From Pseudomonadota bacterium (GTDB lineage Bacteria > Pseudomonadota > Gammaproteobacteria > Burkholderiales > Sulfuriferulaceae), in assembly GCA_021782795.1 (NCBI GenBank), contig JAJXUP010000008.1, positions 1 through 33,479 of the forward strand: a DNA stretch of 33,479 nt. Direction: 5' to 3'. The position numbers were made by a program, and so were the translations under genes. Each line of letters begins with the position of its first letter. Positions within the stretch are counted from its first letter, which is position 1. The notes beneath the pieces were generated by a model that had not been told where the DNA came from, ran no database searches, and was given only the letters and a program-made list of their open reading frames with translations. Shown here piece after piece: positions 9,947 to 17,410 of this stretch.

Positions 9947-10258
9947 GAATGCGGGCTGCGTTGGCGGCACGAATGAAGCGGGGATTCTAGCACAACTGCC
10001 AGATGCATGGCTGGCGAATCCAGACGGGTCACGATGCCGGCGCGGATCGTGGAGCCGGCCATTGCCGGACGGCTGACTTCCTTTGAATTCATGGTGACGA
10101 ATTTCGTTTCCATCGCCGCCATTGGCTGACCTGATGTGTTTGCGGTGCAAATGCGCTCCATCATGACCGACAAGATACACCCAAAAACCATCATCGGTTC
10201 ACCTGAATTCCAGCCCAGACCGTCTTGAGTCGCAACATTTATTTCGCATCAACTTTTT

Positions 10259-10304
10259 ATTCAGCTATACTTCATATTCACCAATCAATTCATTATTCAA
10301 TTCA
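10259..10304 (+). repeat. Five direct ATTCA repeats over candidate HipA promoter
   Basis: ATTCA at 10259, 10276, 10288, 10295 and 10300, flanking TATACT (10266-10271). Confidence 0.55.
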
Positions 10305-10308
10305 CCCC

Positions 10309-11652
10309 ATGTCACCGCACGCTGAAGCCATACGGAAGCGATTATCCATTGGGCCGATGTCTGCAAGGCAACTCGTTGAAAGTATTTCTGTAAGCCAGCC
10401 AACCATCTCCCGTGCATTGGCCGAACTTGGCGATCAGATCATACAGACCGGCTCTGCGCAATCAATTCAATACACGCTGCGCGATCCCATGCGCGGATTG
10501 CCAGATATCCCGATTTATCGGGTCAATGCAGAAGGCCGCATCAAGAAACTGGGAACGCTGATCCCGGTGCGGCAAGACGGGTTCGTCATGCGCCAGGAGG
10601 ACGGTCTAAACTTGTACAGTGACGGCCTGCCATGGTGGTTGTTCGACATGCGCCCCCAAGGATATCTCGGGCGGGCGTACGCAGCCCGCCATGGTGCTGA
10701 ACTTGGACTACCGGAGCGGATCACCGACTGGAGCGATTCCCACGCCTTGCGAGCACTACTTGCGCATGGACATGATGTGGTAGGAAATCTCCTGTTAGGC
10801 GATATTGCGCGGGATCGATTCCTTGCTGCACCTGTGTCTGACCCCATCAAAGAGGAACAGAAGGCCGAAGAGTATGCCCGGTTGGCGCTGGAAGCTGCCC
10901 GCGGTGAGCTAACAGGATCGTCAGCCGGGGGAGAACAGCCGAAGTTCACTGCCTATGCCCTGACGTCCGATGAGGCCCGGCACGTTATCGTGAAGTTCAG
11001 CGAGTTGGAGGAAAGCCCCGTCAGCGAACGCTGGCGCGATTTGCTGCTGGCCGAACATTTAGCGCTGGACACATTGCGAGAAGCCGGTATCCCCGCCGCC
11101 AGGACGCGGATATTGGACCACAATGGTCAGCGCTTTCTGGAGGTCGAGCGCTTTGATCGCATCAACGAACTGGGCCGACGTGCGCTTATTTCCCTGGCCG
11201 CGATGGATGCTGAATTCGCAGGAACCGGAAAAGGGGTCTGGCCAATCATTGCGCACCAACTTGCTGCCACCGGCCACATCCACTCGGAAGCCGCGGACAG
11301 TGCAGCCATCCTGTGGGCCTTTGGCACACTGATCGGCAACTCCGATATGCACAACGGCAACCTGTCATTTGTTTCCGAGCATGGTCGGCCTTACGACATT
11401 GCACCAGCCTACGACATGACGCCAATGGCCTTTGCACCTCGTAGTGGCGGCGGAATACCTGACAGCCTCCCTGAGGCGACGATTCACGCCAGTGTGGCCA
11501 ATGAAACCTGGAGGCGCGCACAAGAACTGGCGCGCACGCTCCTCGCCCGGATCAGGGTCACAACAGGATTTAGCCAGCGATTTGGGTCATGCATCGTCGC
11601 GATGGAACAACACATCGAGACGGCCAGTCGCAAGATCGGACGACTGGAGTGA
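10309..11652 (+). CDS. yjjJ: HipA-family Ser/Thr kinase with fused N-terminal winged HTH (YjjJ-like)
   Basis: N-terminal MSARQLVESISVSQPTISRALAELG HTH. Gly-rich loop SSAGGEQPKFTAY, catalytic GNSDMHNGNLSF, YDIAPAYDMTPM. Confidence 0.85.
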   Translation: MSPHAEAIRKRLSIGPMSARQLVESISVSQPTISRALAELGDQIIQTGSAQSIQYTLRDPMRGLPDIPIYRVNAEGRIKKLGTLIPVRQDGFVMRQEDGLNLYSDGLPWWLFDMRPQGYLGRAYAARHGAELGLPERITDWSDSHALRALLAHGHDVVGNLLLGDIARDRFLAAPVSDPIKEEQKAEEYARLALEAARGELTGSSAGGEQPKFTAYALTSDEARHVIVKFSELEESPVSERWRDLLLAEHLALDTLREAGIPAARTRILDHNGQRFLEVERFDRINELGRRALISLAAMDAEFAGTGKGVWPIIAHQLAATGHIHSEAADSAAILWAFGTLIGNSDMHNGNLSFVSEHGRPYDIAPAYDMTPMAFAPRSGGGIPDSLPEATIHASVANETWRRAQELARTLLARIRVTTGFSQRFGSCIVAMEQHIETASRKIGRLE

Positions 11653-11769: not shown

Positions 11770-12264
11770 TCACCTCCCGGGCAGATTGCCTGCAGCATCC
11801 GGGAAACACAGCGCGTGGCATACGGCCTCCAGCATGGGCACCAGCTCCATTGCACGTAACACATGCTGCCGTAACGTCGCCATGTCTTCCGTATATTCAT
11901 GCACCAGCAGATTGCGTAGGCTGCGCGCTTCGATCCAATCGGCGACGCTCGGTAGCACACCAAGTTTTTCGGCACGATTGAGATTATCCAGCACCGTACC
12001 GACAGGTTCCAGATGCACATTCAGCCAGACGGGTAACAGTTTGTCCCCCAGCGTATCCTGCAAACGCGAAAAACGGCTCACAAACGCGTCCAGACGCTCA
12101 GTCAGCGCTGCGTTCTGGTCAACAGCATCCAGCCAGCCGAACTCGGGATCGGCTCGGCTCAACCCGTGCGCCGAATACAGCAGATACTGACGTTCCCTGG
12201 CGGCAACCTGCCGCAAATGCGCCAGTCTTGCCAGTTGTGCCAGATATGCTGCGCTGTCGCTCAC
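11770..12264 (-). CDS. HEPN-domain protein (HepT/HI0074-like), partner of adjacent nucleotidyltransferase
   Basis: Intact RX4HXY motif (RNLLVHEY). ATGA overlap with the upstream MNT ORF. Confidence 0.8.
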   Translation of the reverse strand: MSDSAAYLAQLARLAHLRQVAARERQYLLYSAHGLSRADPEFGWLDAVDQNAALTERLDAFVSRFSRLQDTLGDKLLPVWLNVHLEPVGTVLDNLNRAEKLGVLPSVADWIEARSLRNLLVHEYTEDMATLRQHVLRAMELVPMLEAVCHALCFPDAAGNLPGR

Positions 12265-12560
12265 AGGCGCACTCCGGTGGCAAGGGCATGCCGATGGATC
12301 GGCTCCAGTACAGTCAATGGATCGATGACCAGCACATCGAATTTTTGCATGCCCAGTTTTTGTTGCAGCAATGCGTTGTATCGGGCGGACAGGCGGCCTT
12401 TGTCCGCAACGGGTGCATCGAGCTGGATCAACACATCGATATCACCACCTTTGGCAGCATCATCGAGGCGGGAACCAAACAGCACAACCTCAGCCTGCGG
12501 GCCGAACACCTGCCCGGCAAGACGGGTCAGGACGGATTGATAATCAGGTGGCAGACGCAT
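12261..12560 (-). CDS. Minimal nucleotidyltransferase (MntA-like)
   Basis: VVLFGSRLDDAAKGGDIDVLI (GSX9DXD), third acidic site in KFDVLVID. Start at MRLPPDYQ. Confidence 0.85.
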   Translation of the reverse strand: MRLPPDYQSVLTRLAGQVFGPQAEVVLFGSRLDDAAKGGDIDVLIQLDAPVADKGRLSARYNALLQQKLGMQKFDVLVIDPLTVLEPIHRHALATGVRL

Positions 12561-12811
12561 TATGCTCACTTTTGCGAAGCAAATCCCACACCGCGGCGTT
12601 GGCAGAGGCAACGCGACCATCCCTGTATCATGGTGACCGTGCGACGAAATGTCAACACGACCCGGATGATGCCTTGCCCGTGGCCACGAGGCACACCACG
12701 AAACGAACATCCCGCGTAACGCGCCAGGCTTCTGTCTCGTGGACGGGACTCGCCTCTGCTACACGCGCCGCCCAACTGACGCCACACATACGCCCGGGAC
12801 TGCTGCGCAGG

Positions 12812-15674: not shown

Positions 15675-16490
15675 CTATTTATCCTGCCATTTGACCACAT
15701 GCACCGGATTCAGGCTGCGGCCGAGGAAACGCTCGCCGATGGTCTGGAATTTTACCGGCACATCGGTCACGTAATACTCGTAACGCGATGGGGTGCTGCC
15801 GGGGTTGAGCAGGCTGCGCTCGGCGAGCAGCGCGGCGGTCAGGTTGGCCATGGCTTCAGCCGAATCGACCAGGCGCACGTCCTCGCCCACCACCTGGCGC
15901 AACAACGGCTTGATCAGCGGATAATGCGTGCAGCCGAGCACCAGCGTGTCCACGTGCTCGGCCATCACCGGCCGCAGGTATTCTTCCGCAGTAAGCCGGG
16001 TGACTTCATGGTCCAGCCAGCCTTCTTCCACCAGCGGCACAAACAGCGGGCACGCCTGCGAATAGATGCGCGCCTCGCGCTGCTGTGCATGGATGGCGCG
16101 CGCGTAGGCATTGCTGTTGACCGTGGTCGGCGTGCCGATCACACCGATCCGCCCGCCCGGGCTGGCCTGCGCCGCGGCCCAGGCTCCCGCCTCGATCACA
16201 TCGAGTACCGGCACCGGGGACATGTCACGGACCGTCTGCGCCGCCACGGCGGCCATGGTATTGCAGGCGATGATCAGCGTCTTGACGTTTTTTTCCAGCA
16301 GGAACTGTGCGATCTGTGTCGTGTAGTGGGCGATGGTCTCCACCGACTTCACGCCGTAAGGCACGCGCGCGGTATCGCCGAAATAGACGATATGCTCGAA
16401 CGGCAGGCGTTCCATCAGCGCCCGCACCACGGTCAGCCCACCGATGCCGGAATCGAACACGCCTATGGGCTGCGAAGGGTCGATCTGCAT
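15675..16490 (-). CDS. murI: Glutamate racemase
   Basis: IGVFDSGIGGLTVVRAL, IACNTMAAVA, LVLGCTHYPLI. Confidence 0.95.
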   Translation of the reverse strand: MQIDPSQPIGVFDSGIGGLTVVRALMERLPFEHIVYFGDTARVPYGVKSVETIAHYTTQIAQFLLEKNVKTLIIACNTMAAVAAQTVRDMSPVPVLDVIEAGAWAAAQASPGGRIGVIGTPTTVNSNAYARAIHAQQREARIYSQACPLFVPLVEEGWLDHEVTRLTAEEYLRPVMAEHVDTLVLGCTHYPLIKPLLRQVVGEDVRLVDSAEAMANLTAALLAERSLLNPGSTPSRYEYYVTDVPVKFQTIGERFLGRSLNPVHVVKWQDK

Positions 16491-16582
16491 GACAACACCC
16501 GAATCAAATGCCCCATGCTAGCACAGGCGGCCCCCGCTCCGCACGCCCCCCGCTGCGCAGCCGGCGCGGAAGGTCCACCGGC

Positions 16583-17065
16583 TCAGGGCGAAACCGCTGT
16601 CGGCAACCCGCCCTGCCGCTCAAGCCAGGCGACCACACCGTCCAGAATTGCCAGCAAAGACCGCGCTGCCTCGATAGCCCGGTTCAATATCGCAGCCTGC
16701 ACGGCAGGATCATCAGGATAATCTTGCGCGAATGCATTGCGCAATTCGCGCAGGCGGATCCACTCGTCGGCCGAGGCGATGACGCCAATTTTTTCCAGGC
16801 GGGCCAGTTTATCCAGAAAAGCCGACAGATCGCCAGGTTCCTGCGCCCGATCCAGCACGGCAGGAAACAGGCTTTGCCCCATGACATCCAGCAAACGGGC
16901 AAACCGTCCAGTGAACTGATCCAGCACCGCCAGATCCATGTCGCTCAGACCGGCCAACCGTTGGGCATCGAACGGAACACTGACAGACAGCTGTTGCATC
17001 GCCCACCGCAATCGGTCTGCGTGGCGACGGCACACTGCAAGTATCGGCTCCAGAACCTGCGTCAT
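16583..17065 (-). CDS. HEPN-domain protein (HepT/HI0074-like) with degenerate catalytic motif
   Basis: Aligns along its length with the 11770-12264 HEPN protein. Motif reads RNAFAQDY (H to Q). ATGA overlap with MNT. Confidence 0.8.
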   Translation of the reverse strand: MTQVLEPILAVCRRHADRLRWAMQQLSVSVPFDAQRLAGLSDMDLAVLDQFTGRFARLLDVMGQSLFPAVLDRAQEPGDLSAFLDKLARLEKIGVIASADEWIRLRELRNAFAQDYPDDPAVQAAILNRAIEAARSLLAILDGVVAWLERQGGLPTAVSP

Positions 17066-17370
17066 GTGAGTTCCACCCCGGTGCTGCGCGCAAGGCGCCA
17101 GATCGGCACATCCGCAGTGGACTGGGCGCGACGCACGGCCATATCGATCTTGCGTTCACCCAGTTGTCTGTGCAGGCGGGCCAGCACACCGAGCCTGGCT
17201 TCCACGACCTGTTCCGCATCGCTGATTGCCGACTCCACGTACAGGTCGATGTCCCCTCCGCGCGCGGTATCATCGACGCGGGAACCGAACAGCCAGACCC
17301 GGCTGTCGCTGCCGAACGCCTGCCGCACGGCAGACACGATTTCCGTCCGCTGTTGTTCGCTCAAACGCAT
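17062..17370 (-). CDS. Minimal nucleotidyltransferase (MntA-like)
   Basis: VWLFGSRVDDTARGGDIDLYV (GSX9DXD), ERKIDMAV. Alternative ATG at 17391. Confidence 0.85.
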   Translation of the reverse strand: MRLSEQQRTEIVSAVRQAFGSDSRVWLFGSRVDDTARGGDIDLYVESAISDAEQVVEARLGVLARLHRQLGERKIDMAVRRAQSTADVPIWRLARSTGVELT

Positions 17371-17410
17371 CTCCGCTCCGCCGGTTGACACCGAATGCCG
17401 GTACCGGACA

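Follow-up and report, generated by a model that had tools for sequence, protein, structure and literature searches.

In the Shewanella HEPN toxin SO_3166, the replacements R97G or H102A abolish toxicity, while Y104A does not (PMC4621449), and the antitoxin MntA puts three AMPs on Y104, which blocks the RNase (PMC7641770). The picture is different in a Legionella HEPN, where H103A and R98A have a negligible effect and the active site is a Mg2+ site formed by Q44 and E47 (PMC11586414). Hence, the claim of an earlier sequence-only reading of the locus studied here, that the His/Arg pair of such proteins is the RNase site, holds for SO_3166 but is not universal. HEPN proteins devoid of this pair have also been described. 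Class II HEPN/MNT pairs (PF05168; Yao et al. 2020) lack RX4H and conserve the Tyr (PMC7641770), and in the HEPN-M group the motif is reportedly conserved in no more than 83% of members. Anantharaman et al. (2013) proposed that MNT-HEPN systems have been domesticated; MNT-fused HEPNs are typically without RNase residues (PMC3710099).

The window analyzed in this work, the whole stretch of 33,479 nucleotides, contains two pairs of a HEPN gene and a minimal nucleotidyltransferase (MNT) gene (Table 1). In one of them, the HEPN protein (RLRELRNAFAQDYPDDP, minus strand) has an incomplete RX4HXY motif, with a Gln codon at the position where the family has His (CAA at 16726-16724; ttg at 16724-16726 on the plus strand). 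Both Arg109 (16739-16741) and Tyr116 (TAT, 16718-16720) are present. The sequence-only reading had described exactly this, a Gln in the place of the His with the Tyr kept, and the sequence and the alignment of homologues bear it out. It had anchored its alignment on the other HEPN of the window (SLRNLLVHEY), to which we can add homologues 51-58% identical that read RNxFSHDYPDD or RNxFAHDYPDD. Judging by sequence comparison, the His-to-Gln replacement is not random noise within an unrelated ORF. The MNT gene lies upstream of the HEPN gene, overlaps its start by an ATGA, and the same gene order is found in relatives. The partner had been described as intact and indeed carries the GSX9DXD motif (GSRVDDTARGGDID) and KID, with no violation in the 14 columns whose conservation among MNT homologues reaches 95% or more. 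We regard it as probable that the window carries a horizontally acquired type VII-like MNT-HEPN pair, of which the toxin was recently disarmed (H114 and Q59 are replaced) and the antitoxin gene is intact. The RNase activity of this HEPN would then have been lost.

Table 1. Coordinates of the two MNT-HEPN pairs of the window and of their relevant motifs.
Feature	Position	Strand	Basis and remarks
HEPN-domain protein (toxin homologue), second gene of the pair	16583..17065	-	160 aa; ORF list; relatives with adjacent MNT
Altered RX4HXY motif, R109-NAFA-Q114-D-Y116	16718..16741	-	Sequence; His in 206/215 homologues
L59 where the (K/R)LQDxMG helix motif has a near-invariant Gln (Q59L)	16889..16891	-	Gln in 206/214 homologues >60 bits and 94/95 >150 bits, counts subject to some ascertainment bias, as LQD was part of one search pattern
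MNT (minimal nucleotidyltransferase), antitoxin homologue	17062..17391	-	GTG start at 17391, likelier ATG at 17370; PF01909 above cut-off
GSX9DXD catalytic motif of the MNT (GSRVDDTARGGDID)	17245..17286	-	Sequence
Third catalytic Asp of the MNT (KID)	17143..17145	-	Sequence and alignment
Second HEPN of the genome, motif intact (RNLLVHEY)	11770..12264	-	SLRNLLVHEY; 38% identity over ~108 aa to the window HEPN with Gln
Second MNT, partner of the intact HEPN	12261..12710	-	PF01909 match

The pair has the organization of a type VII module: adjacent genes with the MNT upstream, GSXnDXD and a third Asp in the MNT, and a HEPN fold in the partner. Neither HEPN of the window passes any cut-off in Pfam, NCBIfam or PADLOC. 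The window HEPN is thus placed by curated cut-offs neither in the PF05168 family of Class II nor in PF08780/HI0074. It has a partial match, over about 60 residues, to the profile of HI0074 (1JOG, E-values of 0.0009 and 0.00026), and a relation to HI0074 is proposed because of this match and of the fold. Among solved structures, those closest in fold to the AlphaFold model (pLDDT 90, pTM 0.86) are type VII HEPN toxins, namely those of Legionella (8XDJ/8YUF/8XEH), A. flos-aquae (7AE6 and related entries) and Shewanella (5YEP). Foldseek gives these matches a probability of ~1.0, with weak E-values (0.005 upward) and TM scores of 0.42-0.59 by query length. PDB matches to protein A were discarded as a short chance likeness (RNAFxQ..DDP). 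On the basis of sequence and predicted structure, we assign this protein to the MNT-linked HEPNs, as a member of a separate subfamily with the hallmarks RFxKLQDxMG, DKLNRLEKxG and RNxFxHDYPDD.

Like the type VII MntA-HepT pairs (SO_3165/SO_3166; HEPN/MNT of A. flos-aquae), the window pair has the MNT first and the HEPN second, a Pol-beta-like MNT with GS..DXD, and a HEPN fold with the Arg and the Tyr of RX4HXY. It differs from them by the Gln in place of His, by GSX9DXD instead of GSX10DXD, and by a HEPN that belongs to a distinct sequence subfamily lying below the Pfam and NCBIfam cut-offs. The best fold match is with the Legionella HEPN-MNT pair (lpg2920/lpg2921; PF08780, HI0074 type), with the RX4HXY loop at the corresponding place. 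One could imagine that the HEPN with Gln still cuts RNA by means of other residues, as the Legionella HEPN does with its Q44/E47 Mg2+ site, since in that protein R98A and H103A hardly matter (PMC11586414). However, Q44 and E47 fall on columns 53 and 56 in a profile-profile alignment that may be off by one helix turn, and the subfamily has there mostly T/L/V/S and S/G/A/T, with neither Gln nor Glu among the common residues. The Legionella site therefore seems to lack a counterpart in the subfamily, which makes the Shewanella-type reading likelier here, within the uncertainty of the alignment along the helix. A further near-invariant polar residue, Q59, is missing from the window HEPN as well. 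An active Gln form is in our view very unlikely. As in Class II HEPN/MNT pairs, the toxin presumed to be disarmed has no RX4H, a conserved Tyr and a partner with an intact motif, but the lack of RX4H is a class-wide trait in Class II, whereas here it is a private loss inside a His-bearing family. What the window adds is one more private case of a kind already known, since HEPN-MNT pairs without RX4H but with the Tyr have been published.

Homologues were drawn from the relatives of the window, its class, its phylum and GTDB contigs. They are not a random sample, because GTDB was scanned with patterns from two other motifs. A single-protein search of genome contigs found no close relatives, whereas a profile search did, and a search of plasmids gave no match. 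At column 114, the 215 hits above 60 bits comprise 206 with His, 5 with Gln, 2 with Tyr and 2 with Pro, and each of these replacements is one base away from a His codon. The nearest homologues (~51-62% identical, from Gallionellales, Methylomonas and others) carry His. In a tree of 185 rows, built without column 114, the 9 non-His tips require at least 7 changes, to be compared with 1 at Tyr116, 2 at Asn110, 3 at Arg109 and 3 at Gln59. The excess at the His column is modest; still, these sequence comparisons show repeated separate loss, at or near the tips. Whether the Gln is conserved in a clade was a question raised by the sequence-only reading, and the answer is negative: there is no old conserved Gln clade on the tree, and none that includes the window. 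The other His-less members of the subfamily (L006, L064, L086/L087, L105, L115, L234, L239) have Gln, Pro or Tyr for His in an otherwise ordinary HEPN. They represent events separate from that of the window, and L115 and L087 have decayed further than it has.

This distribution also bears on whether the pair could have been domesticated, with an MNT that still modifies or binds the HEPN and a complex that acts as a regulator, or as a nucleotidyltransferase of which the HEPN is the substrate-binding subunit. Both ORFs are intact and start-stop coupled, their divergence is ordinary, domestication of MNT-HEPN systems has been proposed by Anantharaman et al. (PMC3710099), and Class II pairs keep the Tyr in the absence of RX4H (PMC7641770). 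Yet an old Gln clade is lacking, the non-His forms are scattered at the tips with some decaying further, the pair has no conserved neighbour and is absent from the site in related genomes, and Q59L is found in the window alone. We consider domestication unlikely. The recent disarming of the toxin, which we prefer, fits with the state of the rest of the protein. Besides H114, the window HEPN differs at 1 of 19 near-invariant columns, and Q59L was seen nowhere else among the homologues gathered. The divergence of the HEPN relative to its MNT is ordinary, and given these two observations the change is possibly recent. We looked for decay of the whole HEPN gene and did not see it, as the violations of conserved columns and the HEPN-versus-MNT divergence are both ordinary. 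From the sequence, the disarming looks recent, or else the HEPN looks still constrained. An error of base calling or assembly at the Gln114 codon could also be invoked, given that the source is a draft genome of 205 contigs with 91% completeness. However, the change is a single transversion without frameshift, the protein has a second unusual residue (L59), and similar private changes occur in genomes other than this one, some of them from named strains (L064, L105), so that such an error is extremely unlikely.

Several relatives show what may follow the loss of the His. We considered only cases of decay read by eye, because an automatic tally of broken HEPN versus broken MNT scored divergent homologues as broken and was discarded. 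One HEPN (L115:1609-1974) reads CAA GAC TAA, i.e., the His has become Gln and the codon of the AMPylation Tyr has become a stop. Two Endozoicomonas species both have CAA: the HEPN is whole in one (L086), and in the other (L087) unrelated sequence has taken the place of the C-terminal part. The remaining Endozoicomonas HEPNs that we found retain His. We assumed a single common event for the two species, which are paired by synonymous distance and not by the protein tree. Lamprobacter has Pro at the His column, and a 94% identical protein of Halochromatium has His. Within the genus of the window, the HEPN of one genome (G008, L006) has Pro at this column. A 92% identical HEPN of another genome (G003, L010) keeps His and is split by an IS605-type OrfB/TnpB gene (L010:281-1489, 402 aa), with an intact MNT just upstream. 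The dN/dS of the two Endozoicomonas sequences that share the Gln (L086/L087) is 0.28 versus 0.11 for a pair with His (L083/L088), and it is 0.13 for L105/L106; these values, which are informative for close pairs only, mix the time before and after the loss of His and rest on few sites, suggest a constraint that is relaxed and still present. The decayed toxin, one half of what the sequence-only reading had proposed, is therefore the better supported half, with His in close homologues, losses scattered at the tips and further decay in several of them. The same reading had regarded close homologues with His together with many strain-level inactivations as evidence against its proposal. Our results come near to this, as several relatives have decayed, but the differences were seen between species and not between strains.

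These observations can be arranged in a putative order of events. In an active pair, the HEPN would cut RNA and the MNT would neutralize it by AMPylating the Tyr. If the MNT or the Tyr were lost first, the toxin would be set free, and the tolerated first step would therefore be the loss of a toxin residue. From then on nothing would hold the toxin gene together, it would decay, and the Tyr would persist for a while by default. The HEPN of L115, with its Gln and then its stop at the Tyr, fits this order, and that of L075 goes against it. In the latter (L075:2474-2950), the His is kept, the modifiable Tyr is replaced by Asp and the MNT beside it is intact, which makes it either an active toxin beyond AMPylation at that site or a toxin disarmed by another route. 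We infer the recency of the disarming, the horizontal gain and the selective order of the losses. Some points speak against a disarmed toxin in the window: the HEPN ORF is unbroken and, apart from these replacements, well conserved, and with its MNT intact too the pair may have kept a function; the His of the Legionella HEPN is dispensable for RNase activity (PMC11586414); and the recency of the change is judged against a nearest relative that is only ~62% identical. The other half of the earlier proposal, an AMPylation sink, decoy or regulator, received no positive support. Since Tyr116 is kept in 183 of 184 homologues, its retention is no special sign of such a sink. It is very doubtful that the His-to-Gln HEPNs are functional non-nuclease partners on which the MNT still AMPylates the Tyr, and which serve as decoys or exert a dominant-negative effect, as partners, on the active HEPN located at a distance of 4.3 kb.

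The pair is inserted between murI and tsaE. In two related genomes (L143, L144), the gap between these genes is ~200-280 bp and the pair is absent; the pair was therefore gained at this site in the lineage of the window, or lost in those two. MNT-HEPN pairs are numerous in the genus, one genome having as many as 8 MNT matches. In such a background, the MNT might be kept against the homologous HEPNs of incoming elements or of the second pair of the window, as an anti-addiction gene, with its dead HEPN as baggage. The MNT is indeed intact in the window, G008 and G003 despite a hit in the HEPN of each. However, an intact MNT is equally expected if the loss of the toxin must come first, and the window's own MNTs share only 40% identity with each other, so that we hold this role to be quite improbable, if somewhat less so than an active Gln form. 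The surroundings of the pair include another toxin homologue, a YjjJ-type HipA (10225-11652, plus strand; NF007297, E-value 2.7e-178) that ends ~120 bases from the second HEPN. Counted with the two MNT-HEPN pairs, it brings the toxin-related loci in a stretch of ~7 kb to three, and a QseC/PmrB-like two-component system and murI are encoded in the spaces between them. In a further genome (G006, L151:1498-3804), an MNT-HEPN pair adjoins murI on its 3' side and is followed by a second pair, while in the window (region 15675-17391) the pair is on the other side. murI may be a recurrent neighbour of MNT-HEPN pairs, or this may be a coincidence.

Taken alone, the window pair would be one more case of a disarmed toxin, and the Tyr that it retains is no evidence of retained AMPylation. 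Taken with its relatives, it belongs to a small natural disarmament series, from HEPNs that are intact to those that lost the His and then those that lost the Tyr or the C-terminus, or were split by a transposon, and the MNT is still intact in several of its members. With this natural series, it becomes possible to test in what order a toxin-antitoxin pair dies.
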